Virus record (IMG/VR): IMGVR_UViG_3300020118_000203
Location: 1-31,789 of that record
DNA length: 31,789 bases
Origin: a virus
Direction: 5' to 3' (one strand)
Made by a program: the position numbers and the translations under genes. The notes below the pieces were generated by a model. The model saw nothing but the letters and a program-made list of their open reading frames with translations, was not told the DNA's origin and did no database searches. This document shows, one piece after another, positions 1 through 21,016 of this stretch (the first letter of the stretch is position 1; every line of letters starts with the position of its first letter).

Positions 1-249
1 AGATCCCGTGGGCGGCGCGGTGATGGTCTCGCCGTGAATGATGAGCTTCAGTTTCGGATCGTGGCCGAGAGCGGTGTATTTGTCGGGCTCGACCGGCATC
101 CGGGCCCCGGAGGGCATCCGAAGGAAACGGATCTCTTTTCCGCAGGCCCGGCACGGAGTGACCAGGCTTATCAGATTATAGAATCCTGTGCCGTCGAGAT
201 CGCGCTCGATGGCTGATACGTGGGATGATAGGGATGAATCGGGGGTCAT
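1..249 (-). CDS. Small Zn-ribbon-like phage protein, cut by left edge
   Basis: An open frame of 83 codons starts at ATG (249-247) and runs off the left edge without a stop. The visible part has a CRACGKEI knuckle near residues 33-40, followed by a basic hydrophobic strand (RFLRMPSG) and PVEPDKY, a pattern common in small phage proteins with one metal-binding CxxC. A second Cys pair is not visible. The gene begins 4 nt after the stop of the upstream small gene, so it belongs to the leftward early operon. No function can be named. Confidence 0.7.
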   Translation of the reverse strand, partial: MTPDSSLSSHVSAIERDLDGTGFYNLISLVTPCRACGKEIRFLRMPSGARMPVEPDKYTALGHDPKLKLIIHGETITAPPTGS

Positions 250-253
250 AGTT

Positions 254-478
254 TTAACAGATTGCGGGCATTCCCGGACTGTCTGGAACTATTTGCATAA
301 GGATGGGCTCGTGGAGCTTTGGACAAAGCGTCCAATGCGTCCAGGTGTCTATCGGAATGGTGAATTTTCGGAAGTGAAGGTCGCGGTGATGAGAGCGGCA
401 CCGGGCGCAGCTCTCTATCCCGACGGTGACGTCAGCTTCTTTCGGGATAGATGGTCCGGGGAGTTGTGGTTTTTTCAT
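254..478 (-). CDS. Small Cys/His-containing early protein, unknown function
   Basis: This 74-residue protein has CARC at residues 24-27, a nearby HH pair and a later LCP motif, so metal binding is possible but unproven. Its ATG overlaps the stop of the preceding HTH gene (ATGA), and the next gene starts 4 nt after its TAA. That packing supports a real gene in the leftward early operon. I do not recognise the family. A longer plus-strand open frame across 188-598 is less likely because it breaks the operon. Confidence 0.6.
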   Translation of the reverse strand: MKKPQLPGPSIPKEADVTVGIESCARCRSHHRDLHFRKFTIPIDTWTHWTLCPKLHEPILMQIVPDSPGMPAIC

Positions 479-789
479 GAGACGAATCGCGCCTGTTTAT
501 GGAGTCTGATGGGCTTCATTGTCTTGACCTTCTGGAACTGCTCGGCAAAGGCGGCGAGATCCCGGACCTTGAACTTCCATTGCTTGCCGATCGTGTAGTA
601 CGGCAGACCAATATTCACGAGGATGAGGATCTGCTGTTTGCTCGTCTTCAGGTATCGGGCCGCTTCCTGGGTCGTGAGGAAGTCGTCTGAGGCATAGAGC
701 GGTTTCGAAAGCCGATCGGCGAGGAGGCCGAGGTTCGATTCGACTTTTTCGAGGAGCTCGATAACTCTTCTCTCTCCTTGGGGACTCAT
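475..789 (-). CDS. Excisionase-like HTH DNA-binding protein
   Basis: The 104-residue protein has an HTH_17 / excisionase-type core at about residues 38-83: an LTTQEAARYLKTS helix, then a second helix and the wing GLPYYTIGKQWKFKVRDLAAF. Proteins of this type bind DNA as recombination directionality factors or small MerR-like regulators. The N-terminal 35 residues look like a coiled coil (LLEKVESNLGLLADRL). The ATG overlaps the upstream stop (ATGA). A functional integrase and attP in the same genome make an Xis role plausible. A purely regulatory role is the alternative. Confidence 0.7.
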   Translation of the reverse strand: MSPQGERRVIELLEKVESNLGLLADRLSKPLYASDDFLTTQEAARYLKTSKQQILILVNIGLPYYTIGKQWKFKVRDLAAFAEQFQKVKTMKPIRLHKQARFVS

Positions 790-1262
790 GAGACCTTCTG
801 CTTTTTCTCGAGGTTGTCGATTTGCTCAGTCATCACTCCGAGGGTCATCATGATCTTTGCGATCGTCTTACGGCATTCCTTCAGCTCTGCCGGCTGAAGC
901 CCGTCCTGGAGGAGTTGAGCGATGCGGCCTTGAGCGGCGTCGACGGTGAGGAGCTCATCGACGAGCGAGGCGCCACTGGGGCGTTCGCGCCGGACCGGGA
1001 GAAGATAGAGATTCAGATTCTTCGCGAGCCAGTTGACGACTTCGACGCCCAAGGGTGCAAGCTCGCCAGTGAGCATGGGGACGTCAGCGACGTCGAGATT
1101 TAGATCGCCTGAGTAGCCGAAGAAGCGCGAGACCGAGCATTGTTTGATTCCGAGTGCGTCGGCGATCACCTTCTGGCCGATCCGTTCGTCTGTGATGAAA
1201 TCGGCGAGATGCTCCCTCAGATCTTCTTTCAGGCGTTCTCTTTTTTCGGCGGGCGTGGGCAT
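786..1262 (-). CDS. CII-like phage transcriptional regulator
   Basis: This 158-residue protein has an N-terminal helix-turn-helix at about residues 28-50 (IGQKVIADALGIKQCSVSRFF) and a C-terminal helical region (AELKECRKTIAKIMMTLG...IDNLEKK) likely to oligomerise. Size, fold pattern and position as second gene after the divergent promoter match CII-type activators that help decide lysis or lysogeny. It starts at ATG 35 nt after the upstream gene and ends in an ATGA overlap with the excisionase-like gene. The family assignment comes from sequence pattern only. Confidence 0.6.
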   Translation of the reverse strand: MPTPAEKRERLKEDLREHLADFITDERIGQKVIADALGIKQCSVSRFFGYSGDLNLDVADVPMLTGELAPLGVEVVNWLAKNLNLYLLPVRRERPSGASLVDELLTVDAAQGRIAQLLQDGLQPAELKECRKTIAKIMMTLGVMTEQIDNLEKKQKVS

Positions 1263-1297
1263 GAAAAGTGTGCTCTCTATGCGTGAGGTTGCGGTCG

Positions 1298-1543
1298 TTA
1301 TTCGGTAGCTTGTTTTTCGCGGGAGGCTTTGCGCGAGCTCGTGCCGTTGGCCGGATAGGCGTCAACGAATTTCGCGATGCGTTCGAGGGCGGCGACGCGT
1401 TTGCCGGTCAGGGCCATCGATACCAGGCTCCTCCCCATCTTCAGCTCCTTCTGGATCCTCTGAGATTTGAGGCCCTTGTCGAGCATGCTTTTGCGGACCT
1501 TTATGTGCAGCGGCTGATCGCCCGGCTCGGATTGCTTCTCCAT
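1298..1543 (-). CDS. Cro-like small HTH regulator, first leftward early gene
   Basis: The chosen start is the ATG at 1543-1541, giving 81 residues. A longer upstream frame would run through the promoter region and is rejected. Residues about 10-45 (LHIKVRKSMLDKGLKSQRIQKELKMGRSLVSMALTGKR, here split for reading as two helices around LKMGRS) form a helix-turn-helix resembling Cro/C1-type proteins. The tail is basic. It is the first gene behind the strong leftward promoter and faces the XRE repressor gene, the usual place of a Cro antagonist. No binding site can be assigned to it specifically. Confidence 0.65.
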   Translation of the reverse strand: MEKQSEPGDQPLHIKVRKSMLDKGLKSQRIQKELKMGRSLVSMALTGKRVAALERIAKFVDAYPANGTSSRKASREKQATE

Positions 1544-1582
1544 CTCGTTTTCTCTATGTTTCGTGGCATTGTTCACGCGTGG

Positions 1583-1611
1583 AATATAACACAAACTAAA
1601 GCATTTGTCAA
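1583..1611 (-). promoter_or_regulatory. Strong leftward early promoter
   Basis: Read on the minus strand, the -35 box is TTGACA (1611-1606), the spacer is 17 bp, and the -10 box is TATATT (1588-1583). This is a near-consensus sigma-70-type promoter about 40 bp upstream of the Cro-like gene. One operator-like repeat lies inside the spacer, so repressor binding there would block polymerase. Confidence 0.8.
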
Positions 1612-1637
1612 GAGAAAAGTAAAACAATTTAAAGCAT
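1591..1637. promoter_or_regulatory. Two operator-like repeats between divergent regulators
   Basis: The sequence ACAA-nn-TAAAGCAT occurs at 1591-1604 and again at 1624-1637, 33 bp apart, about three helical turns. The first copy sits in the spacer of the leftward promoter and is part of a partial dyad (ACAAA...TTTGT, 1591-1608). The second overlaps the start codon of the rightward repressor gene. The arrangement fits cooperative repressor binding with autoregulation. Which HTH protein binds is not shown. Confidence 0.55.
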
Positions 1638-2022
1638 GGAGGAAAATGCCGAGATCGGCGCCCGTTTGGAGCATTTTGGGCTTGAGAAGTATCACACATT
1701 GGCGGCTTTTGCTGCCGCCCTCCGGATATCCCCTCAAAATCTGAACGGTTACATCCGAGGAGTCAGGCGGCCCGGGAATAAGATGAAAGCCCGGCTGCGG
1801 GCGCTCGATGCCGACATCGAATGGATTATGACCGGTCGCTCATCAATCCGGCAGACGATAGCATCGGCCGGCGATATCGAGCTCTTGACTTTCTTAAAGG
1901 AATTGGGTATTGATTCGATCGACAAGGCCCGGGAGATCCTAAGTCCGGAGGCTCTGGCTCAGGATATTGCTGCGATGGTCCGAGAGAAAATGACGAGATA
2001 TCGATCGAAGAGGAAGCGATGA
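1636..2022 (+). CDS. XRE-family repressor, putative lysogeny (CI-like) regulator
   Basis: This 128-residue protein carries an XRE helix-turn-helix at about residues 18-50 (LAAFAAALRISPQNLNGYIRG) followed by ALDADIEWIMTG, a characteristic end of this HTH family. No LexA/S24 peptidase motif is present, so induction would not be by self-cleavage. The C-terminal half is helical and ends in a basic tail. The start ATG has no Shine-Dalgarno site and lies on an operator-like repeat. A weak rightward TTGTCA(1605)/TTTAAA(1628) pair would give an almost leaderless message. It is divergent from the Cro-like gene and heads the lysogeny operon. Confidence 0.75.
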   Translation: MEENAEIGARLEHFGLEKYHTLAAFAAALRISPQNLNGYIRGVRRPGNKMKARLRALDADIEWIMTGRSSIRQTIASAGDIELLTFLKELGIDSIDKAREILSPEALAQDIAAMVREKMTRYRSKRKR

Positions 2023-2711
2023 GATCCCTGCGATTATATTCAATGCTTGCACTGATCAATGCCATCGGTCTACTTGGTTGTGGGAGTGATACGGTGATGA
2101 TCAAGCAATATTCTTTGAATTCTCAGAAGCATATAACCCCGGGAGAGGCTCTGATGGAATGGGGTTACTACTTGTCGCACCGCGCTACGCACGTGGTCGA
2201 TGGAGGTATCCGAAAACAACTCTTGTATGGGGGCGTCGATCATGGCACTCTCCAGATAAGTTATCGCGAATTCTCGCTCGCTCAGGCCGGCGAGTTCGCC
2301 AGAGCTCCTTTCTATCAGGATTTGAAATATGATCTCGCTTCCTCGTCGATCATCGCATTTCAAGACATACGAATTGCGATCGATTCTGCCGACCAGCAAG
2401 GCCTACTCTTCAGAGTGCTGAAAGGACCGAGCGAGACGTTCGAAGCCACTCCGCTCGATTTGGGGGCAGATATCTCCGGAATGATTATCGGAACCGGCTA
2501 CGAAGTGAAGGGAGTCAGAACCGGCAGCGCCGCCTTTGCGGCGAAGATCCAGATTGGCGATACATTAGTCAGCATATCCGATACTCCTATTTTGGGTAAG
2601 AAGGTCGATGAGATCCAAGATTTGCTTTGGGGAGATCCCGATACCTCCGCAGAGATAAAACTGTCCAGGGCAGGAAAAGAAGTGAATCTATACATCCAGC
2701 GCCATCGATGA
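2019..2711 (+). CDS. Lipoprotein with C-terminal PDZ domain in lysogeny operon
   Basis: The 230-residue protein starts with a short basic n-region, a hydrophobic stretch and a lipobox LLGC (Cys21), so it should be exported and lipidated. Residues about 155-228 match a PDZ domain: VKGVRTGSAAFAAKIQIGD, then TLVSISDTPI, a helix and a final SRAGKEVNLYI strand. The middle (25-150) is not recognised. There is no protease or peptidoglycan hydrolase domain. The ATG overlaps the repressor stop (ATGA) and its stop overlaps the integrase start, so it is expressed with lysogeny functions. Superinfection exclusion or lysogenic conversion is an inference from position and export, as for the lipoprotein Ltp in the lysogeny module of Streptococcus phage TP-J34. 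Confidence 0.8.
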   Translation: MRSLRLYSMLALINAIGLLGCGSDTVMIKQYSLNSQKHITPGEALMEWGYYLSHRATHVVDGGIRKQLLYGGVDHGTLQISYREFSLAQAGEFARAPFYQDLKYDLASSSIIAFQDIRIAIDSADQQGLLFRVLKGPSETFEATPLDLGADISGMIIGTGYEVKGVRTGSAAFAAKIQIGDTLVSISDTPILGKKVDEIQDLLWGDPDTSAEIKLSRAGKEVNLYIQRHR

Positions 2712-3715
2712 GCACCCTCCGCCGCCGCAAGAACGGCTACTTCTTCATCGACATCCGGACCGAGGGGGCGAGGAAGCGGATCTCACTCGATACCAAGGAT
2801 CGGCGGACCGCCAAGGCGAAGGCAAATATCATCGAGCGGGATCTCACGGGCGGCGAACCGGTATCCCGGGCGACACTCGATGACTTTAAGCTCGAATTCG
2901 AGCTCTACTCAAAAGCCCGGAAGGCGCCGAGCACGACGAAGGCCGAACGCTACGCGCTCAATAAGCTCTCCAAGTTCATCCGGATGCGGTATCTCGATCA
3001 GATCACACCAAAGATGGCGGATGCGTTCGTAACTGCGATCGCGCGGGAAAAGAAGAAAGATAAGACGCTCACCCCCGGCGCCGTCAATTTCTACATCCGG
3101 ACCTTGAAGGCGATCTTCACCACGGCTCACAAATGGGGCTACGTCGACCGGAATCCGTTCGTGGGAGTGAAGGCAATCCGCTTCGAGCGATCGATGCCGA
3201 GGATCCTCACACTCGGGGAAATCGCATCGGTCTTTGAAGCGGCGAAGAGAATCGAACCTGCGATGGTGCCTTTGATCGAATTTTATCTCTTGACGGGGAT
3301 GCGGAGAAACGAGACGTTGAATCTGGAATGGACGGATGTGGACCTTGCGAGGAACGTACTGACTTTGCGGAACACGAAGGGGAAACGGGCGAGGACCGTG
3401 CCCATGGCGCCGAGGGTGAAGATGATCCTGGACTCGAGGCGCGAGCTCGCCAGGCCTTTCCTATTCCGACCGAGCACCGTCAGCCACAAGTTTACTCTCA
3501 TCGCCCAGGAGGCCGGGATCCCGGACATCTCACTTCATGATCTTAGGCGGTCCTTCACGAGCTACGCCCAGGATATCGGGATGCCGGCGATGTTCCTCCC
3601 CTGGTTAATCGGACACACGGAAGAGCAGACGACCCAGCAGCACTATACGGGGTTTTACGATGAGATGATCGCGCAATACTTCATGAAGCTCGAAGCGAAG
3701 ATCTTCCCCAATTGA
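2708..3715 (+). CDS. int: Tyrosine-family phage integrase
   Basis: The 335-residue protein (start ATG 2708, overlapping the lipoprotein stop as ATGA) has the three parts of a lambda-type integrase: an N-terminal arm-binding region (about 1-60), a SAM-like core-binding domain (about 55-150) and a catalytic domain. The active-site set is complete: Arg199 in TGMRRNE, a basic beta-hairpin with NTKGKR near 222-227, His277 and Arg280 in LHDLRR, His303 in IGH, and nucleophile Tyr313 in HYTGFY. It should join attP at 5147-5377 to a tRNA-Leu gene. Genes of unknown function separate it from attP by about 1.4 kb. Confidence 0.96.
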   Translation: MSTLRRRKNGYFFIDIRTEGARKRISLDTKDRRTAKAKANIIERDLTGGEPVSRATLDDFKLEFELYSKARKAPSTTKAERYALNKLSKFIRMRYLDQITPKMADAFVTAIAREKKKDKTLTPGAVNFYIRTLKAIFTTAHKWGYVDRNPFVGVKAIRFERSMPRILTLGEIASVFEAAKRIEPAMVPLIEFYLLTGMRRNETLNLEWTDVDLARNVLTLRNTKGKRARTVPMAPRVKMILDSRRELARPFLFRPSTVSHKFTLIAQEAGIPDISLHDLRRSFTSYAQDIGMPAMFLPWLIGHTEEQTTQQHYTGFYDEMIAQYFMKLEAKIFPN

Positions 3716-4191
3716 GCTTTTTTCCCTCCTTGACCTTATTCGAAATCATCCAGGCGGCATTGGGAGCCGCGACTGCGGTCTTCGCCGCGGTCCTCGTTAG
3801 GGCGACGTTTGTGCTCGCGAGAGTCACCAGGGCCATGGACGAGCACGAGATGCAAAGACGGCGCGAGCAAGACCTTCGCAACTGCATCCAATTCGCACAA
3901 ACAATCCTGAGTCCCGGAGCTGACGCCGGTTCACCAATGGGTGATCTCTTTACCAGCAAGCCCGTTCAACCATACAACGATCTCCTATCGCTCGGCAAAT
4001 ATTTTCATGATGTCGATACTAAGCGCCAGCTCGAAGTATTAACATCGCGTTTGACCGCCGCTCTCGTGCGCGGCGGCAACCCATTTTTAGGCGATAAGGC
4101 ATTGACCGATGCTCGATTGAAGCTTCGCGAGCGGCTTGTCCAGGAGATTGTCGAATGGCAGAGGGACTTGGGAAATTATCAGCGCTCTTAA
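3712..4191 (+). CDS. Membrane-anchored protein of unknown function
   Basis: The start is TTG at 3712, overlapping the integrase stop (TTGA), a coupling also seen at two other junctions in this genome. The 159-residue protein has one N-terminal transmembrane segment (about residues 9-36, AALGAATAVFAAVLV) followed by a charged, mostly helical cytoplasmic region with DEHEMQRRREQDLRNCIQFAQTI and a C-terminal helix. I do not recognise the family. Its place behind int suggests cargo expressed in the lysogen, possibly with the next small gene. Confidence 0.6.
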   Translation: MSFFPSLTLFEIIQAALGAATAVFAAVLVRATFVLARVTRAMDEHEMQRRREQDLRNCIQFAQTILSPGADAGSPMGDLFTSKPVQPYNDLLSLGKYFHDVDTKRQLEVLTSRLTAALVRGGNPFLGDKALTDARLKLRERLVQEIVEWQRDLGNYQRS

Positions 4192-4229
4192 AAAGGCTGG
4201 GGCCTTTACGTCAACAGGAGAGGATCGGC

Positions 4230-4493
4230 ATGGCAGATGAAACCCTAACGCTCAATCCAACTTCTCGGGATGCAGCTTTAATATATATTCTGGCAGAGGC
4301 CAGGACAGCGAATTCCCTACTTGCATTAATTTTAGGCCACATCGGCAACAAATCCTTCCAAGAAGTCGACGCCACGCTGATCGGGATGAGGCTTGAAGAA
4401 TTGAAGCACGTATTTTCGATTCTGTCAAAAACACCCGGCTTTGACGCAGATCGCTGGCGGAAAGCTCTGGGATCGAACGGAGGCCCGACCTAA
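4230..4493 (+). CDS. Small helical protein, unknown function
   Basis: The chosen start is ATG 4230, preceded by the strong Shine-Dalgarno run AGGAGAGGA (4216-4224). An upstream ATG at 4155 would overlap the previous gene by 37 nt and has no such site. The 87 residues are largely helical with a moderately hydrophobic middle (ANSLLALILGHIG). No domain is recognised. It is the last rightward gene and converges with the DUF2513-like gene; the 40 nt between them show no clear terminator. Confidence 0.55.
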   Translation: MADETLTLNPTSRDAALIYILAEARTANSLLALILGHIGNKSFQEVDATLIGMRLEELKHVFSILSKTPGFDADRWRKALGSNGGPT

Positions 4494-4535
4494 GAAGCTG
4501 ATCCCGAAACGGCGTCGCGCTGGTTTGGCGATCAG

Positions 4536-4859
4536 TCATTTCGTGGTCGGAGGAATTCGAGGAGTTTTATCGAAATAGGATCTGACGTCCTGGATCCCGA
4601 TTTTCTCCATGCCTTCCCTTACAATCTGCTTGAGCGAAAAGTATGATAGCGGAAACTGAGCCTTCTCATGTCGATCGAGACACCGGCTCCAGGTTTCGTC
4701 GTCGAGGATGTCGGCCGCGAAACTTCTTCCTTCATCGGTGAGCGTCACCAGGCCCGCTTCCTTCAATAAGCGCAAATGCAGGCCCAGTACATGATCCGGT
4801 TCTCTGGGCGAATCGAGATCCAGCAACAGACTCCGGAGGAGGTTAAAGTCGCGCTTCAT
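4536..4859 (-). CDS. DUF2513-like protein
   Basis: The 107-residue protein begins MKRDFNLLRSLLLDLD and continues with LHLRLLKEAGLVTLTDEG...SFAADIL, matching the DUF2513 pattern: an N-terminal helix, then a winged-helix-like HLxLLxEAGL segment and a Gly-Phe/Ser turn. Members occur in phages and mobile elements and have no established role; a DNA-binding fold is likely. The ATG (4859) overlaps the upstream stop as TGATG; a TTG directly upstream at 4862 is an alternative start. It forms a two-gene leftward unit with the next gene. Confidence 0.7.
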   Translation of the reverse strand: MKRDFNLLRSLLLDLDSPREPDHVLGLHLRLLKEAGLVTLTDEGRSFAADILDDETWSRCLDRHEKAQFPLSYFSLKQIVREGMEKIGIQDVRSYFDKTPRIPPTTK

Positions 4860-5155
4860 CAATCGATTTCTCGATCCACTTCTGGAAGCACGAGCTGCTT
4901 ACCGCGAAAATCGTGTGTGCAATCAGTCTGATAGATGATCACCCCATTGGTGACATAGAAATGGCAGGTTTGCTCCGGGCTCTCAAACGGCGTCTTTGTC
5001 ACTTTCACTGAGGGCTGAAATGACGGGGCATCGACGCTGCCGTTGAAGGTCCAACGTTCGTCTACCCAATGAAGAAATCCGCACGCCGGGCAATGAAAAC
5101 TCCAGCCGAGATGCTTCCCCTCCCTCACAACTTCCATTACTTTTCGTGTGCCCAT
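4859..5155 (-). CDS. DUF6527-like small Zn-binding phage protein
   Basis: The protein shows the linear pattern of a small phage family often mislabelled 'ammonia monooxygenase' (DUF6527): GWSFHCPACGFLHW (CxxC at 22/25), WTFNGSVDAPSFQPSV (35-50), CHFYVTNG (64-71) and DCTHDFRGKQLVLP (78-91). Cys and His residues suggest one bound zinc. The molecular role is unknown. The start is uncertain: ATG 5155 gives 98 residues and ATG 5182 gives 107; neither has a good ribosome site. The 5155 start codon lies inside one integrase arm-type repeat, so binding at attP could affect expression. Confidence 0.7.
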   Translation of the reverse strand: MGTRKVMEVVREGKHLGWSFHCPACGFLHWVDERWTFNGSVDAPSFQPSVKVTKTPFESPEQTCHFYVTNGVIIYQTDCTHDFRGKQLVLPEVDREID

Positions 5156-5165
5156 ATTGTGCCCA
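5147..5165 (+). repeat. Left integrase arm-type repeats
   Basis: TGTGCCCAT at 5147-5155 and TGTGCCCA at 5158-5165 are direct repeats one helical turn apart. The same pair recurs on the far side of the core. They overlap the possible start of the DUF6527-like gene. Confidence 0.75.
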
Positions 5166-5255
5166 CGTGACTCCGGAGGCATTCAGACCGGTACGGAGAA
5201 GGACATAAAATTATCGAATCGGCTCAAAATTCGCATGCGGGGCAGTTCCCATCAC

Positions 5256-11026: not shown

Positions 11027-12478
11027 TCAAGATTGCCCTCCGACATAGAAGGTGCTCGTCGTGTTCCATTCGATCGTCGTGCTCGATGCGCCTGTGACGC
11101 TCAAACTGACCGTCGAGCCCGAGAGCGTGAAGGTGACACTCCAGCCCGTTCCGCCCGACCCATCGTGGATCGTGGTGGTCGAACCCTGTTGGAGCGCCGA
11201 GCCGCTTGTGTTGTAGAAAGTTCCCGAGACGATCCACCCGGCAGCATTATTGAGGCCGCCTGAGACGTTCTTGCCGGCGGTGACGAATGCCTGCCAGACT
11301 ACGAGCTGGTTGCTACTGACTGTGGCCGAGAGGAGCGTCGTCTGCGTGGCATCGGTGGTCTGGACTTTCTGCTGGATTCCATAGGTGGCCGGCGAGGTGC
11401 CGCTGGTGCCTGTCTCGAAATACCAGACCTTATTGCCGAGCGTACCCTGCTTCGTATGCAAGCGCGCGAGAGTCGAAGTCGGGAAGCCGATCGCCACATC
11501 CCCGCTATTCTCATTGATCAGCATCGGATTGCCCTGGCCGATTTGTGTCTGGCTTCCCGAGGCGGCCGCGAGGATCAGATTTCCGGAGGAGGTGAGCTTC
11601 GTCGCAGAGATGAATGCATTGGCAGTCAGAAGCGAGCTGAAGGTCTTCGCTCCGGCGATCGTCTGGCTTCCTGTCGTCACGAAGCCCCGTGCCGAGGCGC
11701 TTGCATCGGGGATAGCGAAGGTGTGCGTCGTGCCTGAGGATGAGATCGTGAAATCTGTTCCGGTCGTCGCAGTTGCAAAGGTCTGCGTCGCCCCTGTGAG
11801 CGTGTTGAGGGTCATGATGCCGCCGGATGAGGGCGTCACCCAGGAAGTATTGGAGCCATCCGTCTGCAGCTGCTTGCCGGAGTTTCCGCCCTGGGAGGGC
11901 AGCAGAGCGTTGAGCGCCGCATTCGCGGTGACTTGCCCGGTCCCCCCATTCGCGATCGGGAGCGTTCCCGTGACTCCCCCGTTGCCTGAAGTCCCCAGGT
12001 TGATTGCCGGCACATCCGCCCCTACCATCAGCCGAAACGTGGGAAGGCCGCTCGAGCCATTCGGGGCCGCGAAGAACTTGTTCGCCGCCTCTGAAGCCCA
12101 AGTGACCGTGAACGTGCCCGTCGTCGTCACCGGGGAGCCGGAGACGGACATCTCTGAGGGGACGACGAGAGCGACGGATGAGACCGAGCCACCCCCGGCG
12201 CCGGAAATCTCAACATAGGTGCCGTGATCAATGACGGTCGTCGCGCCGGTCCCGAGGAGTTGCTTGATGACGTTCTTCGATCCTATGACATAGAGCTTCA
12301 CATGAGAGCCGGAGGCATTAGTAATGCTATCGAGCTTGAAGAGATCCATCCACATGCCCCGGGACCCGTTCCACATCCACACCATCCCCGGCCTGGGAGC
12401 TGGCTGGGAGGATGCTATGGAGGAAATCGCAAAAACGGCGAAAAGACCTATGGAGATGGTATAGAGGATCTTCTTCAT
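11027..12478 (-). CDS. Tail fibre protein with N-terminal leader
   Basis: The 483-residue protein starts with a leader ([20 protein letters not shown], then IASSQPAP) and contains classic fibre elements: [20 protein letters not shown] near 95-115, [10 protein letters not shown] near 172-181, and a Gly/Ser/Thr-rich beta shaft with [13 protein letters not shown] and [19 protein letters not shown] motifs. The C-terminal 120 residues (from about 365) look like a receptor-binding beta domain. The ATG overlaps the stop of the discoidin-like gene (ATGA). Fibre identity is firm; the leader is the odd feature. Confidence 0.8.
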
Positions 12479-13242
12479 CGGGTTGCGAGCTGCTCCTTCA
12501 TGGTGATCTTATCAAACTGGTTGAGGTTCGCCCGGAAGAGCTTCGTCGGGTCGATATCGATATCGAGAGAGACAAAGTATGCGGTGCTTCCCGTGTCCTG
12601 AAAATAGAAGGGGCGCAGACGCCCTCTGACCTTCTGGAAAAAGACTTGAAACGCGGCCAGGGTCGCATCGTCGAGCCCGGGCTTCAGGAATGTGATCTGC
12701 CAGGAGAGCCTTCCACCGAAGACCTGGCTCGCCCTCACCGTCCCATCGAGGGCGATCTCCTCGGATGTCTGATATTTGGCATTCGTGACGTTTGCTGGGA
12801 AGTCGTAGGGAAATCCGAAGTCGAGTTTCTTCCCGAGATAGAGGGCTCCGAGCTCCGGCGCCTGCGCGAATGGGGTAATAAAAAGCCGCCAATACCTCGC
12901 GGTATGAGCTCCAAAGGTCGTGAAGAAGGGGCTCCCCGCGGGCGAGGGGCTTCCAATGACACTCGTAGCGGTGAACCAGGTCGAGTTGTCGGAGGAATAT
13001 TGGAGCTCGGTCGGCACATTCCCCGTATGTAGGTTCGACTTCTGGAAAGCGATGCAATCACACTCGACCGCGGTGCCGAAGTCGATCGTGAGCGTCTGGG
13101 CGGCGGTCGAAGCCGTCTTCCAGGTGTCGGTCCCGATATAGGTCGTGAGATTCGACAGCGGATGACCTGCAACAGGAGTCTGGCTCGAGGACAGAGAAGA
13201 ATAGGTCGAAAGATCGACGGCGAGGAAGATGGGGTTGCTCAA
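12475..13242 (-). CDS. Tail-tip protein with discoidin-like N-terminal domain
   Basis: The start is TTG 13242, overlapping the previous stop (TTGA); upstream residues of the longer frame belong to the shadow of the larger gene. Of 255 residues, about 10-125 resemble an F5/8-type C (discoidin) domain: [50 protein letters not shown] and ARYWRLFIT. Such domains bind glycans or lipids. The C-terminal half ([13 protein letters not shown]... RLRPFYFQD) resembles siphovirus minor tail proteins that attach the tip. It has no leader, unlike the fibre genes that follow. Confidence 0.7.
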
Positions 13243-16200
13243 AGCGCGTCCACTCCTCTCAGGTAGGCCGACACGATTGCGACCTGGTCCGGGGTATGCG
13301 CGCCGTCGTAGATCAAGATCTCTTCGATGTCTCCGATGAACGGAAGCGCTCCGGCGGCATTGTGAGCCCCGATCGTGAGCCCATGGAAACCCTTGAACGA
13401 TCCGGGGCCATAAGTCCCCGCGGATCCGCCGTCGAGCATGATCACACCCGCGCCCGCCGGGTTGCCTCGTGAATAGCTCGCTACATGCCATACGTTATAG
13501 AGCCACTCCGCGTCGTCGAAATCATGGCCATCCTGATAGGTGGTTCCATTCCCGCCCTGGATCTCGATATGGTTCGCGAGCCCGAGACCCGCGTCCGATG
13601 GATAGAGTTGCCACGAGAGGTAGACATCGCGGCCCACGAGCCCATAACCGGAGCTCGCGGAGGCGTCAGTGGTCCGGTTGAAGACGATATATATCGTATA
13701 GCCCGAATCTCCAGGCTGCGCCGGCGTGGTGATCCACTTCGTGCCTGAGAAGCGCAAGATGGGGTGACCGTTGATGATGTTCGTTTTGTAGATCGGCTGG
13801 TTCGCGCCCGTGGCTTGAACGGCATGATTCCCGAGCCCGGAGAAGTCCGTCCACGAGGCGATCGCATCGCCGTCGGATAAGCCCATCATCTTGCGTGAGG
13901 CGCCCCAGAATATCAATCCACCGATCGAGCCGTCGAGCGGGTCCCAGGGCGGGGGTACGATCGGCTCAAGCTTCAGGAGCGCATCGACCGTTGCGGATCC
14001 GTCCGGCGAGCAGCCCATCGTATAGATAGGGCCAGAGCCCGAACCTGTGATCTTCGTACCAATGAGGGTGACGTCGGCCCGGTCGATCGGTTCATACTGA
14101 AAAACCGGCACATTCCCCATCCTCAGACGATAGAGCGAGCGGTCGACCTTGAAGAATTGCCAGGCATAAAAGGCCACATCGCGGGCGATGGCGTCGGGGA
14201 TGAAGTCGTTAGAGATTGTTTGCGTTCGCTTATCCGAGAGCACGGCGACATCGAAGGCGGTCCCGTTATAGGTCGTGATCTTGGTCGCCGAGTTGATCTG
14301 GATCAGGTCGGCCTTCGGATATGCGAGAAGGGTCTCCTGGACATCCGAGACGTTCGAGCGGTCGAGCGCGAGCCCATTTCCGGTCGTGGTGGGGTTTCCC
14401 GAATCATCGGCCCTGCGGTAGCAGATTGCGCGCTTGGCGAATGAGATCGTGCCGAGGAGGAGAAACGAGTTCAAGATCTTCTTGATCGCCGGGGTGATGG
14501 AGGTATCTTTGAAGTTCGCCATCGTGAGCGCCGGCACCACCTTCGCGCACCACTGCAGTAGGTCACGCACTCCCGTCTGGTAGATCGCCGCATCGTTTAT
14601 CAGATACAGTCTTCCGTTGGCCTCGACCATCTGGTGATATTTCGTGTAGATATGGCTTCCGGTGATTGCATTCGTGCTCGTGAGAAGCGTGGGCGTGTTG
14701 TTCAGCACCGAGTAGAGCGCAAGCCCGAACATCGATGCCGCGTCGACCGTGAAGTAAGTGAGGTTGTCGACGGGGTCAGCATAGATGTTATCGCATAGCC
14801 CATCCGGGGAGAGATCGAGTACCTGGACCGCCGTCGCACTCGAGTCGGTATGCGACCAGATCGCGGGGGCTATCCCAGAGGGATCAAACCAGTAGTACAC
14901 CCTTCCCTCGGCATCATTGTGCGCGGCGGCCCGGAAGTAGTTGTCGATCCCCGGCACTTTCTCGCCATTGTCCACCCAGGTTCCCGATCCGTTCACCTGA
15001 AACTCCCTGAGGGCGTGCTGGCCGGAGTTGTTGTAGACTCTGAAGCGGATCTTGCTCGACCCGATCTTATGCATGAAGATGGAGCGGATGCCGTTGCCGG
15101 TGGTGTAGGCGAGGCCGATGCCGGTCGCGATCGTCGTCACCGCAAGCGAGGAGCCGTCGATCCTTTGGAACTTACCCCTCGAGGTCGCGCCGTCGTCATC
15201 GGTGAAGACGAGGGCATACTCCCACGAGCTCCCCGCATAGTTGAAGTCGACGAGCTCCATCGAAAGATGCACGCTATTGCCGGTTGCGACGGCCGAGGAA
15301 AGGGTATTCGACCCGACATCGTAGCGGTAGATGCTGGTCCCATTGTAAATCCAGACGTGGTTATTTCGCGCATTATAGAAGAGCCGCGTGATAACTGCCG
15401 AGGGGATTGTGGTTTTGAGCGTATAGATCCCCGTCAAGACGTCCCTGAAATAGAGTTTCGCATCTACAGCCACCCAGAGATTCGTCCCGTCGGTCTCGAG
15501 GGCGTTCTTCACGCCCGTCACGATGCCGTCATTATTCGGAGGCACATCGATATGTGAGAGCCTCTTCTGACCATCCCAGGTTGAGAACTCGATCGTGTCG
15601 AAGTTGACACTCGTCATGCCAATCTGCTCATAAAGCTTCGCGAGGATGAACCGGATATCGGCGTCGGCATACCATCTCTTGGGGAGCGTCTGGCCTGTCT
15701 GGACCACCACGAAGTCGTCATAGACGGCGTTCGGGAATGAAGTCGGTGAGACGACGTAAACCTTCACCCTCTGCGTATCCGTCCCGCCGGTGGGCGCGTT
15801 GCCGATGGTATAGGTGCCGTTCGAGGGGATGGCGACCCACGCCCCGCCGTCGAAGTTCACACCCTGGGCCGGGTCCCAGCCAATCGCGTGCGTTCCGAGC
15901 GTGACGGCATAGCTCGCGATGTTGACATCGATGATATAGATGCCGGCGAGAGTCGGGAGAATTAATCCATCATGCGATCCGTCGACGTTATGGAATATCG
16001 GCTGGCAGCTCACAACCTCGGCCGGGAGACGGTTCCCGAGCTCATCTGCCGAATAGCACGTCAGGGCGGTCTGGTCGTCGAGCTCCATCGAGAGGCTCCC
16101 CGGCGGGTCGATCCACCCGGCGAAATAGTAGATCACGTCCGAGGCACCCTGAAGCATCATCTCGGTCTTAATCTCGACTCTATCGATGCCGTTGAAGACA

Positions 16201-16457
16201 TTATCCTTCCACCACTGAATGTCTTTGATCGAGAATGAGATCGAGTCGGCGGTAAACTGCCCGAGCTGATATTCCACCTTGGCGATCGAATCAGCGAGTG
16301 AATCGCGGACAATCCGATCGGTGACTTCGGTCCAGGCTGTGCCGGAATCGAGCGGCTCGGAGAGCAAAGCCGTTTTTCTCACGAAGGAGCGGAAGATGAG
16401 GATCTTCGAGGCGCCGCGCGCCAGGTCGTTGAACTCGGGAGAGGCGGTAAGCTTCAA
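13239..16457 (-). CDS. Large tail-tip protein with C-terminal LamG-like domain
   Basis: The 1072-residue protein directly follows the tape measure gene (ATGA overlap), the position of the distal tail/baseplate hub. Residues 1-150 are a tail-protein-like N-terminus (SISFSIKDIQWWKDN, then DDQTALTCYSADELGNRLP). The middle (about 310-640) has repeating beta-propeller-like strands (TDGTNLWVAVDAKLYF, NNHVWIYNGTSIYRYD, EGRVYYWFDPSG). Residues about 841-1072 match a concanavalin A/LamG fold: GLIFWGASRKM, DGDAIASWTDFSGLGNHA, LRFSGTKW, GDIEEILIYDGA and a last helix. This end should bind host surface glycans. Confidence 0.8.
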   Translation of the reverse strand: MKLTASPEFNDLARGASKILIFRSFVRKTALLSEPLDSGTAWTEVTDRIVRDSLADSIAKVEYQLGQFTADSISFSIKDIQWWKDNVFNGIDRVEIKTEMMLQGASDVIYYFAGWIDPPGSLSMELDDQTALTCYSADELGNRLPAEVVSCQPIFHNVDGSHDGLILPTLAGIYIIDVNIASYAVTLGTHAIGWDPAQGVNFDGGAWVAIPSNGTYTIGNAPTGGTDTQRVKVYVVSPTSFPNAVYDDFVVVQTGQTLPKRWYADADIRFILAKLYEQIGMTSVNFDTIEFSTWDGQKRLSHIDVPPNNDGIVTGVKNALETDGTNLWVAVDAKLYFRDVLTGIYTLKTTIPSAVITRLFYNARNNHVWIYNGTSIYRYDVGSNTLSSAVATGNSVHLSMELVDFNYAGSSWEYALVFTDDDGATSRGKFQRIDGSSLAVTTIATGIGLAYTTGNGIRSIFMHKIGSSKIRFRVYNNSGQHALREFQVNGSGTWVDNGEKVPGIDNYFRAAAHNDAEGRVYYWFDPSGIAPAIWSHTDSSATAVQVLDLSPDGLCDNIYADPVDNLTYFTVDAASMFGLALYSVLNNTPTLLTSTNAITGSHIYTKYHQMVEANGRLYLINDAAIYQTGVRDLLQWCAKVVPALTMANFKDTSITPAIKKILNSFLLLGTISFAKRAICYRRADDSGNPTTTGNGLALDRSNVSDVQETLLAYPKADLIQINSATKITTYNGTAFDVAVLSDKRTQTISNDFIPDAIARDVAFYAWQFFKVDRSLYRLRMGNVPVFQYEPIDRADVTLIGTKITGSGSGPIYTMGCSPDGSATVDALLKLEPIVPPPWDPLDGSIGGLIFWGASRKMMGLSDGDAIASWTDFSGLGNHAVQATGANQPIYKTNIINGHPILRFSGTKWITTPAQPGDSGYTIYIVFNRTTDASASSGYGLVGRDVYLSWQLYPSDAGLGLANHIEIQGGNGTTYQDGHDFDDAEWLYNVWHVASYSRGNPAGAGVIMLDGGSAGTYGPGSFKGFHGLTIGAHNAAGALPFIGDIEEILIYDGAHTPDQVAIVSAYLRGVDAL

Positions 16458-19400
16458 GGCAGGATCGTCGGCTTGGAGCGGGTATTCTTGAAGAATGCAG
16501 CCGGGTCTTCGACGCCGAGCTTTCTCATGCCCTGCTCGACAGCAGTCTTGACGTTATCGGCCGTAACCGCTCCTTTGAAATTGATCGTCAGATACAGATT
16601 GTGGACCTGATTATTGTTGTTGACGATCGTCTGGCCGCGCGGGCTGATCGTGGATTGCGAGGATCCTTGAGCCGGGAAGCTCGGCAACGGCCCGAAGGCT
16701 GACGGTTCGATACCGAGTTCGATCGGCGAGCCATTACTATCGACAATGCCGCCATCGTGAAATTCTCTGAGATTCGAGATAATCGTTTCCGCATCGCGCG
16801 CGATCGCGAGGGTGGGGAGCTGATCAGCGCGGGAGAGGATCTCAAGGCCTTGGGAGGCAATAATCTTCAGGAGATCCGGATGGGAGCGCATTTCTCGCTC
16901 GATCGTATAATAATTGGCGAGGATCTCTTGGATGGAGGATTCCTGCCGCTCGGTGCGGATGGTCTCGCCGCCGCGGACCAGGATCGGGAACTCACGCGAG
17001 GGGGGCGCATCAATATAGACGCCCTCGTGGGCCTTGGGAAGCTGCTCTGGAGATGCGGATGAAATGATCTTCTCTTTCTCGAGCTCCCTGAGCAACGATT
17101 CCGCATGATCGACGTCTTTAATCAGCGATGAGAGAACGACCGGCGGCGCTCCTGCGATCGGAGCCGCCGGAATCAAGGAGCGGCCGGGGGCACCTCCAGA
17201 GACAGGTCCTTGGATCTGTCCGGCTTCACTTCCAGCCATTGCCGGGTTTCCAGTGACGGGAGCAATGAGCTTCTCAATCAACGAGACATTCTTTTCGATC
17301 TCGCGGATGAAACTTGAGCTTGCAACGCCCTCTGCAGTCGCATGAGAAGATTCACCTGGCGTTGGCTGATCGCCTGAGGCTGCTCGGTCGCCTATCGCGG
17401 CGCCGTCGTGAGGCTTCGGGGGCGCCTCGGCGTTCGAGAACGAGACGAGCTTCTCCCGTTCGAGCTGCCTGATCAGCGATTCTGTCTGATCTATCTCCTT
17501 GATCAGCGACGAGAGAAGGATCGGCGGATTTCCTGCGATCGGTGCCGCGGGAATCGACGAGCGGCTCGGGGCAGCTCCAGGGACGGATCCCTGGACCGGT
17601 CCGGCTTCACTTCCAGCAACTGCCGGGTTTTCAACAACGGGCTTGATGAGCCTTTCGATCAACGAGACATTCTTTTCGATCTCGCGGATGAACGTCGAGC
17701 TCGCGATATCGCGTCCCGATGGCCGAGCCTGGACCGGGGGAGCGGGACCCTCGCCCGATGAGCGCATATCGCTCACTGCGGCCCCATCGTGAGCGCGGGG
17801 CATTGTCGCATCGGGTGTTGCCGATTCAGGTTCGATCGGAATTGATCCCGGGCCAATCACCGATTCGATGGTTTTCAGCTCTTTGGCGAGCTCGGTTCTT
17901 TCGGCGTCGGTCGTCAGACGATCGATCAGCGCTATTGATCGATCGAACTCCTTGATGAGCGATGAAATTACACTCGAGGATCGGGAGGTAGTCTTGGAAG
18001 CTGAAACGGGCTGGCCGGCGAGGGCGCCCGACGGTGAGGATCTCTCCACTCCTTGAGGCTCACTTCCAGCGACTGCCGGATTTCCGGGCTCGGGGGGAAT
18101 CAACTTCTCGATGATCGAGATGCTGTTTTCGATCTCGCGGATGAACTCGGAGCTTGTGATATCGCGTCCGGATGGCGGAGCGGGAGTCTGAGCGGTGAAC
18201 CGATCGGCCATAGACGTCGCGTCGCCGACCGCGGCGCCATTATGGGCCCGAAGCAATTCGATCGCTGCATGATCGGCCATGGGCGCCGGAAGGCTCGCCC
18301 GGATGCCGAGCGTCGATTCGATCGTTTTCAAACTTTCCATTATCCCGGTCTTTTCAGACTGCGAACGCATGCGATCGATCAGCTTCTCGGAGCGGGAGAT
18401 CTCGGAGACGAAATTTTGCAGGCGCTCGAGTTTTGATACTCTCTCCGAGGACCTGGCTGTTGCCGCTGGGCCGCCGGCAGGAGGCGAAATGACTATCGTT
18501 CCGCTGTGGGCCTCGTGCGCAGCACCCCCAGCGGCTCCGGTGAGATTGGGGAGCTCGGGTAGATCCAGATCGAGATCGAAGATGCGCGCGGCAGCTGGAA
18601 CCCCCTTGAGAACTTCCGGATGATCCCGAAGCGATTCTCGCAAGATTTTCTCGCTTCTGATGACCTCCTGGATTCGGGCCTCCTGGAGCTCGGTACGAAC
18701 GGTCTCCCCTCCTCGCACCAGGATGGGAAACTCTCTCGAGGGCGGTCCGGCGATATACTGGCCTTCATGGGCCGTGGGTATGGCGCTGCCTGAGCCGCCG
18801 GCGATGTCGATCCCGCCGATCGAGCCCCCAGGGACCTGACCGCCTTCATGGAAGAGAAGGGCGAAGATATCTGTGACCGCGAGCGTGGCGAGCTTTTCGA
18901 GCGCGGTTGTGACGACATCATCCCAGAATTTCGCCCAGACATCGGAGAGCTGATCAAGGGTGGAGCGTGTGTTGTCGGCATACGCCTTATTCAGATCCTC
19001 CTCGCGCTGGATCCGGTTTGCGGTGAGATCCTGGAGGCGAAGGTCATACTCTTTGCGTGAAATCTCCCCATCATGGAGCTGCTTGGCGAGCGAGAGGCGG
19101 GTTTTCTGATCCTCGATATTCGCGAGCTCGTTACGGCGTTTCATCCCTTCGAGATCATTCGCCGCGCGGGTGTTGTCAAATCCCAGGAGAGTCGAGAGCG
19201 CCTTGCCGGCAGCTTTGCCTGTGGCATCCTCGAAGGATTTCCAGAGGTCCTTGAACTCCCTTGAAGAATTCTTCGTCAGCCGGTCGATCGTCGCCTGGAC
19301 CTGTTCGATATTCTCATCGATACGTGCAAAATCCTCCGGATCCACATCGAAGGCGATATGGCGCCTTTGCTCTTCGAGCTTATGCAGCTGCTGTTCCAAG

Positions 19401-21016
19401 CCTTCGATCGTATCTTTGGGATATTCGATCTCAACGCCCACCACGACCGGCGTTTTCATCGATTCTCTCAAACGATCAGCCCAGCCTTGTGCTTCCTGAA
19501 GCTTCGCATTCAGCGCATCCCACTGTGGCGAGAGGGCCGGGGTCCTGAGGAGCTCTTCATTGAGCGAGTGAATCTGGGCGTCGATATCGTTCAGCGTGAA
19601 GCCGCGGAACGAGGTTTTCAGCTTGTCGGCGGCCTCATCGGCGGAGAGAAGATGCTCGGAGAGAATTCTGTGAGACGCCGCCAGCTGCTCAGCTTGTTCC
19701 CTGGAAGCGGCGAGCGTTTTATCGAGATCTTTCTGAGCGTTGATGATCCGGGCGGTATCCTGGATCCACTTCAGAGTCGAGGGATCGAGCTCATCGACGG
19801 CTTTCTGCATCTCCTTGATATGCTGTCGGGCGCCATCGACAGTAGCAAGCAGCTCCTTGAGATCATCTTTCTGGGCGGCGAGCTCGGCGAAAAGCCTCGG
19901 AGGGGCGCTCCTGCCGAGCTCTTTTACCTTTGCCTCGATCGCCGTGATATTGGCTTCGATCGCGGCGAGGCTCGATTTGTCGCCCGAGAGATGACTCAAG
20001 ACCTGATCGACGCCAGAGAGATCGGTTTTGAGGTTCTTCGCTTTACCTGAGAGGATATCGGCGCCCTGGCCTGCGGCCGCGAAGGCATCGAAGGTCTTTT
20101 TCTCGAGATCATTGACGGTCGCATCGAGCTCCTTGGCGAAATCCTGGACCGATGTGCTTCCGCTAATCCCGAGCTTATTGAGCGCAATCTCACCAACTTC
20201 GGCGATCCCCACCAGGCCTCTGACCGCTTCGACGAAGGCGCCGGCGAGCGCGGTCTCGACGCCCATGGCGACGATCTCGACTTTTTCGGCGGCGATACTG
20301 AAGACGTCCTTGAGATCGTTCGTGGCAGCTTTCACCGCCTGAATCTTTTCCTCGTTCGTGAGCATGGCGAGGTTCGCCAGATCGAGCTTATCGATATACT
20401 TCTGATGGATCTGGGTGAGGATCTCCATCTGGGTACTCTGGCCTGCGACTTCACCCGTCATCGCGGCGAGCGCCGCGGCAGAGTCCTTCGAGCCCTTGGT
20501 GAGGTCGACCTGGATGCCGGCGAGCTTCAACATCCGCACCGAGCCGCGTCCGACGCCTTCGGTGATCTGGTCGAAGGCATCTGCGGTCGATATCCCCATC
20601 TGTCGGGCCCGATCGCGCGCGAGGAGCATCAGGCTCCCGATTTCATCCAAGGGGACATTGAGGGCGAGGGCGCGGTTGGTGGATTCGATGATCTTCTGAT
20701 CGTCGATCAAGCCGCCGGACTTCTCTTTGATATCGGCGAAGACGGTTGTCGCATCCTCCCCCATTTTCGTCACATTCTGCTCAAAGACCTGACGTGCCTG
20801 CTCGATTTTCGCGCCTTCATCGGCCATATCCATGAGCTTATGGACCGTGAAGGCGGTCCCGCCGATCGTAAGCCCAAGAGAGAGCCAGTCGGATTTGACG
20901 GTCTGGGTGAGGGTATGCGAAGTGGTCCCGATTTCTGAGGCGACCTTCTTCCAGACGCCGGAAGCTTCATCGCGGAGTTTCAGGATCATCTCTATTTCGC
21001 GATTGGTGACGGCCAC
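16454..21016 (-). CDS. Tape measure protein with repeat-expanded C-terminal third
   Basis: The 1520-residue protein starts at GTG 21016, behind the tail chaperone genes, as in lambda H. Residues 1-725 are helical and coiled-coil (LDKTLAASREQAEQL, LEQQLHKLEEQRRHI) with hydrophobic patches at 45-65, 240-285 and 708-722. From 749 a duplicated block appears: AHEGxYIxxPPSREFPILVRGGET occurs at 749-772 and 1329-1352, and between them three 'HxGAAxxD ... (S/T)FIREIE ... NPAxAGSE ... SSLIKE' units begin at 925, 1076 and 1203. By the lambda ruler ratio the length suggests a tail of about 0.2 micrometre (inference). No peptidoglycan hydrolase domain is seen. Confidence 0.92.
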   Translation of the reverse strand: MAVTNREIEMILKLRDEASGVWKKVASEIGTTSHTLTQTVKSDWLSLGLTIGGTAFTVHKLMDMADEGAKIEQARQVFEQNVTKMGEDATTVFADIKEKSGGLIDDQKIIESTNRALALNVPLDEIGSLMLLARDRARQMGISTADAFDQITEGVGRGSVRMLKLAGIQVDLTKGSKDSAAALAAMTGEVAGQSTQMEILTQIHQKYIDKLDLANLAMLTNEEKIQAVKAATNDLKDVFSIAAEKVEIVAMGVETALAGAFVEAVRGLVGIAEVGEIALNKLGISGSTSVQDFAKELDATVNDLEKKTFDAFAAAGQGADILSGKAKNLKTDLSGVDQVLSHLSGDKSSLAAIEANITAIEAKVKELGRSAPPRLFAELAAQKDDLKELLATVDGARQHIKEMQKAVDELDPSTLKWIQDTARIINAQKDLDKTLAASREQAEQLAASHRILSEHLLSADEAADKLKTSFRGFTLNDIDAQIHSLNEELLRTPALSPQWDALNAKLQEAQGWADRLRESMKTPVVVGVEIEYPKDTIEGLEQQLHKLEEQRRHIAFDVDPEDFARIDENIEQVQATIDRLTKNSSREFKDLWKSFEDATGKAAGKALSTLLGFDNTRAANDLEGMKRRNELANIEDQKTRLSLAKQLHDGEISRKEYDLRLQDLTANRIQREEDLNKAYADNTRSTLDQLSDVWAKFWDDVVTTALEKLATLAVTDIFALLFHEGGQVPGGSIGGIDIAGGSGSAIPTAHEGQYIAGPPSREFPILVRGGETVRTELQEARIQEVIRSEKILRESLRDHPEVLKGVPAAARIFDLDLDLPELPNLTGAAGGAAHEAHSGTIVISPPAGGPAATARSSERVSKLERLQNFVSEISRSEKLIDRMRSQSEKTGIMESLKTIESTLGIRASLPAPMADHAAIELLRAHNGAAVGDATSMADRFTAQTPAPPSGRDITSSEFIREIENSISIIEKLIPPEPGNPAVAGSEPQGVERSSPSGALAGQPVSASKTTSRSSSVISSLIKEFDRSIALIDRLTTDAERTELAKELKTIESVIGPGSIPIEPESATPDATMPRAHDGAAVSDMRSSGEGPAPPVQARPSGRDIASSTFIREIEKNVSLIERLIKPVVENPAVAGSEAGPVQGSVPGAAPSRSSIPAAPIAGNPPILLSSLIKEIDQTESLIRQLEREKLVSFSNAEAPPKPHDGAAIGDRAASGDQPTPGESSHATAEGVASSSFIREIEKNVSLIEKLIAPVTGNPAMAGSEAGQIQGPVSGGAPGRSLIPAAPIAGAPPVVLSSLIKDVDHAESLLRELEKEKIISSASPEQLPKAHEGVYIDAPPSREFPILVRGGETIRTERQESSIQEILANYYTIEREMRSHPDLLKIIASQGLEILSRADQLPTLAIARDAETIISNLREFHDGGIVDSNGSPIELGIEPSAFGPLPSFPAQGSSQSTISPRGQTIVNNNNQVHNLYLTINFKGAVTADNVKTAVEQGMRKLGVEDPAAFFKNTRSKPTILP
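17032..18772 (-). repeat. Degenerate tandem repeats in tape measure gene
   Basis: Bounding copies of the AHEG...PPSREFPILVRGGET module lie at the two ends. Inside are three repeat units starting at about 18244, 17791 and 17410 (spacing 151 and 127 codons). Near-identical DNA stretches encode FIREIEKNVSLIE and AGSEAG, a substrate for recombination. Confidence 0.75.

Follow-up and report, generated by a model that had tools for sequence, protein, structure and literature searches.

Why would a temperate phage carry the gene of a lipoprotein with a PDZ domain between its repressor and its integrase genes, and what could the product do for it? The gene lies in a virus record of 31,789 bases from a temperate tailed phage, and this whole stretch is the window referred to below. 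The minus strand of the window encodes a lambda-type large terminase, the portal, the major head protein and a head-tail attachment protein, while its left end is a lysogeny region with two diverging arms. The rightward arm runs from an HTH repressor through the lipoprotein gene to a tyrosine integrase, with each start codon overlapping the preceding stop. On the leftward arm, an HTH gene is followed by a CII-like gene and then by an excisionase-like gene of the HTH_17 type. The features of this region are the following.

475..789, minus strand: HTH_17 excisionase/Cox-like gene (Pfam HTH_17, 2.1e-9; phrog_66, 2.5e-5)
786..1262, minus strand: CII-like regulator (Pfam Phage_CP76, 6.4e-5, just below cut-off; phrog_101, 0.0029)
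1298..1543, minus strand: small HTH (Cro-like) gene facing the repressor, assigned by position (Pfam HTH_31, E 0.029, below cut-off; start codon picked by eye)
1583..1611, minus strand: divergent promoter resembling sigma-70 sites, TTGACA-17-TATATT, its second hexamer preceded by TG (11/12 matches)
1587..1637, no strand: possible operator, an 18-bp direct repeat (83% identical, copies separated by 33 bp), of which the second copy lies across the start codon of the repressor
1636..2022, plus strand: short HTH repressor of 128 aa, without the S24 peptidase part (phrog_8, 5.6e-6; phrog_4, 1.1e-5; Pfam HTH_3 below cut-off)
2019..2711, plus strand: PDZ-extended YREF-domain lipoprotein gene, 230 aa, ATG start (ORF reading)
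2019..2081, plus strand: lipoprotein signal peptide with lipobox LLGC, Cys21 (read by eye; Cys21 invariant in a 41-row alignment whose rows, except for the window protein and four genome loci, were picked for having a lipobox)
2187..2429, plus strand: YREF domain, residues 57-137, the conserved core of phrog_1353 (profile match over residues 56-136, E 2.4e-10)
2457..2696, plus strand: PDZ domain, about residues 147-226 (Pfam PDZ_6 above cut-off; prc PDZ region)
2708..3715, plus strand: tyrosine integrase (Pfam Phage_integrase, 3.9e-18; phrog_1, 7e-56)

The region between the diverging arms looks like an immunity switch, and the operators within it are only a guess; the 18-bp repeat, present in two copies, may be due to chance. 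In positions 1-5200, two promoter-like sites were found against 2.9 expected in shuffles, so that the number of sites alone is not significant, and the same search returned no promoter of its own for the lipoprotein gene. The repressor stop codon (TGA, 2020-2022) overlaps the lipoprotein ATG (2019-2021) within an ATGA, and the lipoprotein stop codon (TGA, 2709-2711) overlaps the ATG of int (2708-2710) in the same way. The lipoprotein ATG is preceded by GAAGAGGAAGCG. Nothing SD-like is found ahead of the int ATG, which makes translational coupling of int plausible. The initial annotation had placed the lipoprotein gene in a lysogeny operon between repressor and int, which is confirmed, and had it translationally coupled to both neighbours. 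The overlaps are present on both sides as that proposal implies, and it is for int that coupling is plausible from the sequence. The location of the gene in the lysogeny operon and its co-expression with the neighbouring genes are thus well supported, and we infer that it is transcribed in the lysogen.

The base composition of the gene differs from that of its surroundings. Its GC content is 0.50 and its GC3 is 0.545, whereas int has a GC3 of 0.78 and terL one of 0.756. The two gene halves have a GC content of 0.494 and 0.504; the values of int and terL are 0.57 and 0.577, respectively. Since both halves are equally low in GC, the composition suggests that the fused lipoprotein-PDZ gene was acquired as one piece, in a moron-like manner.

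The N terminus of the protein, MRSLRLYSMLALINAIGLLGC, contains two Arg, a hydrophobic stretch and the lipobox LLGC ending at Cys21. With this reading by eye of the translation of 2019-2711, the lipoprotein assignment of the initial annotation holds. That annotation had recognised the lipobox and the PDZ domain only; between them lies the YREF domain. It matches profile positions 149-225 of 230 in phrog_1353, which is about the last third of the profile. The invariant residues Y82, R83, E84, A94, F98 and D105 are all kept, and the motif YREF..ARPAF..YD of the phrog_1353 C-terminal domain is present. In an AlphaFold2 model built with 41 sequences, residues about 31-138 are largely confident and beta-rich, with pLDDT values of 83-98 per ten-residue block except for 56 in residues 51-60. 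Foldseek returned no match for the YREF domain at E <= 0.001 in PDB or BFVD. The best VIA-align hit is an S-layer domain with a Z of 6.5, within the range that the tool calls common.

Proteins of phrog_1353 are encoded by many Klebsiella, Salmonella, Acinetobacter and Moraxella phages. We read six relatives, namely STM2726 of Fels-2, the proteins of the Salmonella phage SE479_1PHIH2, of the Microcystis phage yong1, of the Acinetobacter phage Ab1656-2 and of the Moraxella phage Mcat28, and a Pantoea plasmid protein; all six have a lipobox and carry the YREF domain at the protein end. A domain pattern scan yielded at least 120 phage loci. An automatic call assigned a lipobox in 107 of the 120 listed loci, and several of the others are truncated at the 5' end. 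Three proteins (L064, L130, L189) appear to be exported without a lipobox, so that anchoring is not essential to the family. From these sequences we conclude that phrog_1353 is, by prediction, a family of exported lipoproteins, of which the window protein is a variant and not a typical member, because its profile match is partial and 149 residues follow the start of the motif. It shares the lipobox, the YREF domain (C-terminal in those proteins) and the same invariant residues with the lipoproteins of Fels-2, Ab1656-2 and Mcat28, but its N-terminal region is shorter, YREF is followed by four extra residues, and the PDZ domain has been added.

Matches by tblastn were obtained in 34 phage and 11 plasmid records, none covering 80% of the query, and among the matches listed the alignment is limited to the middle of the window protein. 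Single-sequence patterns found no close full-length relative in viral or genome contigs, and a pattern fitting the AFYQ motif of the window protein found only L102 in viral contigs. A two-row alignment search gave none in viral contigs and four compact lipoproteins of about 150 aa in genome contigs, from Paraburkholderia, Cupriavidus and Vibrio. The Paraburkholderia and Cupriavidus proteins align from residue 1 or 7 to residue 133 or 135 with 27-28% identity, a span which argues that export signal and YREF domain have been inherited as one unit. In Pseudomonadota genomes, the whole-protein search matched 3 of 299 and the domain profile search 9 of 398, a patchy distribution. No PDZ was found in the six of these nine ORFs that were read (L166-L168 were left out). 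No phage hallmark was found among the ten neighbours of the compact relatives that were scanned, and a wider envelope function of the family is therefore possible.

That the C-terminal part is a PDZ domain, as the initial annotation had it, is borne out by the sequence profile. Pfam PDZ_6 matches residues 163-215 with an E of 2.5e-7 and 30.8 bits against a cut-off of 27, and Pfam PDZ (2.9e-4) and PDZ_2 (1.5e-3) both fall under their own cut-offs. Among NCBIfam models, prc (C-terminal processing peptidase, 3.2e-7) comes nearest, matched over its PDZ region; among solved chains, the D1 C-terminal protease does so (0.0046). Prc/CtpA and the D1 protease thus provide the best profile and solved-structure matches of this part; in contrast to them, the window protein has no protease domain. 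The PDZ region has pLDDT blocks of 34-58 in the full AlphaFold2 model and a mean of 46.8 when modelled alone, with no homologues for that part. Given the low confidence of these models, the PDZ call rests on the sequence profile. Foldseek with the low-confidence PDZ-only model gave no PDZ among the matches listed.

The kinship to peptidases raises the main rival to a role in phage exclusion, namely a role in host physiology. By means of its PDZ domain, the lipoprotein could bind a periplasmic protease or the substrates of such a protease, or recruit them, and thereby tune envelope stress or fitness of the lysogen, leaving other phages unaffected. The Prc/CtpA and D1 protease matches point in this direction, as do the compact YREF lipoproteins encoded away from recognisable phage genes. 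We nevertheless consider it unlikely. The PDZ domain is missing in all 115 phage relatives with a complete 3' end among the matches listed, and therefore it cannot explain the function of the family.

In these 115 relatives, the protein ends 52-59 residues past the YREF tyrosine, compared to 149 residues in the window protein. A tblastn search of 50,697 phage records with the PDZ part gave no match, and the domain looks rare in phages, as had been claimed. No second PDZ-bearing phrog_1353 member was found within the searches made, which covered a non-random sample of at least 120 loci with one required motif spacing, so PDZ fusions may exist elsewhere. By sequence comparison, the window protein appears to be a PDZ-extended variant of the phrog_1353 family and a single case within these searches, with the PDZ domain as a private C-terminal addition behind the unit of export signal and YREF domain. 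Such a solitary domain might also be decayed or a passenger without ligand, leaving the YREF half alone functional. The PDZ-free relatives among the matches listed, the lack of a phage homologue in the 50,697 records and the low-confidence model would fit a passenger. This explanation is distinctly unlikely, given a Pfam score over the cut-off, an intact reading frame and a composition equal to that of the first half of the gene.

The genomic neighbourhood of YREF proteins offers a further view on their role. Among the matches listed, 107 complete proteins reduce to 43 representatives at 85% identity. We scanned 86 of their 151 listed neighbours, which comprise all 79 first neighbours and seven second neighbours picked by length, a choice that favours tape-measure matches; tape-measure family phrog_1506 was matched in 9/86 and repressor family phrog_4 in 8/86. 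Several YREF relatives are encoded no more than two genes away from a tape-measure gene, which would suit a protein that is made late, has a role in structure or assembly (associated with tail or lysis) and is not a lysogen protein. For the window protein this is highly improbable, as its gene lies on the opposite strand from the identified head and tail genes and forms a single series of overlapping genes with repressor and int. To our knowledge, exported lipoproteins are not expected in virions.

Repressor neighbours were traced individually for chosen candidates. Seven of the eight phrog_4 matches were traced in this way, six being upstream of the YREF gene and one, in L104, convergent beside it. 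A further pattern added L188 and L189 with the order repressor, YREF. In total, the YREF gene is immediately preceded by a same-strand gene of a CI-type repressor in eight loci (L064, L102, L111, L124, L130, L131, L188, L189), with a spacing from overlap (L130, L189) up to about 150 bases (L131). In L190, a short HTH repressor is located about 400 bases upstream. The repressors of seven loci were compared and have best local identities of only 22-48%, so the pairing does not stem from one recent lineage; L111 and L131 are related, with lipoproteins 72% identical. In the stretches read, by eye and without a profile scan, int was not seen directly behind the YREF gene in any of the eight pairs; the record of L102 is cut off at its end, and the reading of L188 and L189 covered about 2.6 kb. 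Conservation of the neighbourhood, which the initial annotation had put forward as a check, holds at the level of the lipoprotein family: the order of CI-type repressor and YREF protein recurs in eight other loci, and neither a PDZ domain nor adjacency to int was seen among them. The recurring placement by CI repressors and tape-measure genes suits a phage-directed role better than the tuning of host physiology discussed above.

Among these loci, four YREF lipoproteins with an AF[YST]Q motif are encoded beside or near repressor genes (L102, 6588-7277; L104, 4039-4689; L188, 507-1217; L190, 2743-3513), and this subgroup might represent an exclusion-type branch of the YREF family. In L078, a VasI-like gene (type VI secretion accessory) follows the YREF lipoprotein gene at 1054-1668. 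In Fels-2 and its relatives, the YREF gene belongs to an accessory region at a distance from cI and int and not, as in the window, to the repressor-int operon. The Fels-2 gene STM2726 is found between a replication gene and the portal gene, adjoining a dinI-like gene; the available text of one paper lists it only in a table of operons (PMC2225428).

The closest operon precedent is the Vibrio phage K139, closer than the phage TP-J34 to which the initial annotation had pointed. The annotated operon cI-orf2-glo-int of K139 has overlapping genes and a lysogenic promoter, with cox and cII running divergently, and it encodes an exported protein, Glo, between cI and int, like the window. Glo is annotated there as periplasmic and involved in phage exclusion. 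The literature describes it as a soluble periplasmic exclusion protein (PMC3952083) and glo as an immunity gene of the K139 family (PMC4870250). K139 has one extra operon gene, orf2, and Glo is soluble whereas the window protein would be lipid-anchored. A common family was rejected, with no local alignment at E <= 100 and with Glo belonging to phrog_7270 and the window protein to phrog_1353.

Ltp of the Streptococcus phage TP-J34 is likewise encoded in a lysogeny module. According to PMC3952083, it is a lipoprotein transcribed from the prophage that halts DNA injection, apparently via the tape-measure protein. Ltp differs in having a repeat domain of another family, a Gram-positive host and no PDZ. 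Pfam at E <= 0.1 gives only PDZ models and a weak ADH_N match for the window protein. As a precedent, Ltp holds for a lipoprotein in the lysogeny module; it does not hold for the build of the protein, which has no Ltp-family Pfam match and a phrog_1353 core. The lipoproteins Lpp021 and Lpp010 of mEpimmI coliphages, according to PMC11893012, exclude phages when expressed alone. They are encoded in a structural cluster, in contrast to the lysogeny region of the window, and are likened here by description. The window gene is therefore akin to glo, ltp and the genes of Lpp021 and Lpp010 in layout or location and not in sequence as tested (Ltp by Pfam; Glo).

We propose, with a probability of roughly one half, that the gene encodes a membrane-tethered exclusion lipoprotein expressed in the lysogen, to which the PDZ domain adds a peptide-binding site. 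As a lysogenic-conversion gene, it would be transcribed in the prophage together with repressor and integrase. The product would be exported, lipidated on Cys21 and tethered to the envelope; in a diderm host it would face the periplasm. The beta-rich YREF domain would carry out the task common to the phrog_1353 family, most likely the blocking of DNA entry of a superinfecting phage, in the manner of Glo and Ltp, which act outside the cytoplasmic membrane. The PDZ domain would add a binding site for carboxy-terminal peptides that captures a partner. The candidates are a tail protein that is injected, or a host envelope protein or C-terminal protease substrate required for entry, each of them captured by its C terminus.

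We favour exclusion because the export part and the YREF domain form one unit, CI-type repressors recur upstream and tape-measure genes recur as neighbours, and because of the patchy distribution, the low GC content and the precedents of K139 Glo, Ltp and Lpp. Counted against it are the lipobox-less proteins of L064, L130 and L189, the location of the Fels-2 gene away from cI and int, the compact relatives without phage hallmarks, the unrelated sequence of Glo and the lack of a structural match. PADLOC gave no match to the window protein, and the open-access papers searched contain nothing on the function of phrog_1353 or on any PDZ phage lipoprotein; both also weigh against exclusion.

If exclusion is true, a function would be assigned to a common prophage gene, possibly one that shapes which phages infect lysogens. 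The recurrent pairing with CI in so common a family makes a role in the lysogen testable. The PDZ variant provides a handle on function, as PDZ ligands are short C-terminal peptides. A tentative extension, which we hold for doubtful, is that the proteins of phrog_1353, a large family, all serve temperate phages of Gram-negative hosts as superinfection-exclusion lipoproteins and have gone unrecognised as such. The window protein would be the PDZ-armed member of this family and the first phage exclusion protein based on a PDZ domain, which would grip an injected tail protein or a host entry factor by its C terminus.

For the phage as a whole, integrase relatives were not found in viral contigs, and TerL identifies sister phages in 21 loci. 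None of these 21 records matches the lipoprotein and one contains a distant integrase; as most of them are fragments, the absence of the lipoprotein there says little. The nearest sister, the fragment L016, is 81% identical to the window in TerL, 88% in the portal and 87% in the head protein, and extends upstream of the terminase region by about 9.5 kb of sequence not present in the window. Downstream of int, 3712-4493 on the plus strand contains two small genes with no family match in Pfam or PHROG, the second with a GC3 of 0.504, as low as that of the lipoprotein gene. On the minus strand, 16454-21016 encodes a 1520-aa protein with no match in PHROG (E <= 0.001) or Pfam (E <= 0.01), which follows a minor-tail gene and two small genes in the position expected for a tape measure. 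Two virion-type proteins encoded at 12475-16457 on the same strand have sub-cut-off matches to Laminin_G_3 and F5/8 type C (galactose-binding) domains and are probably host-binding tail proteins.
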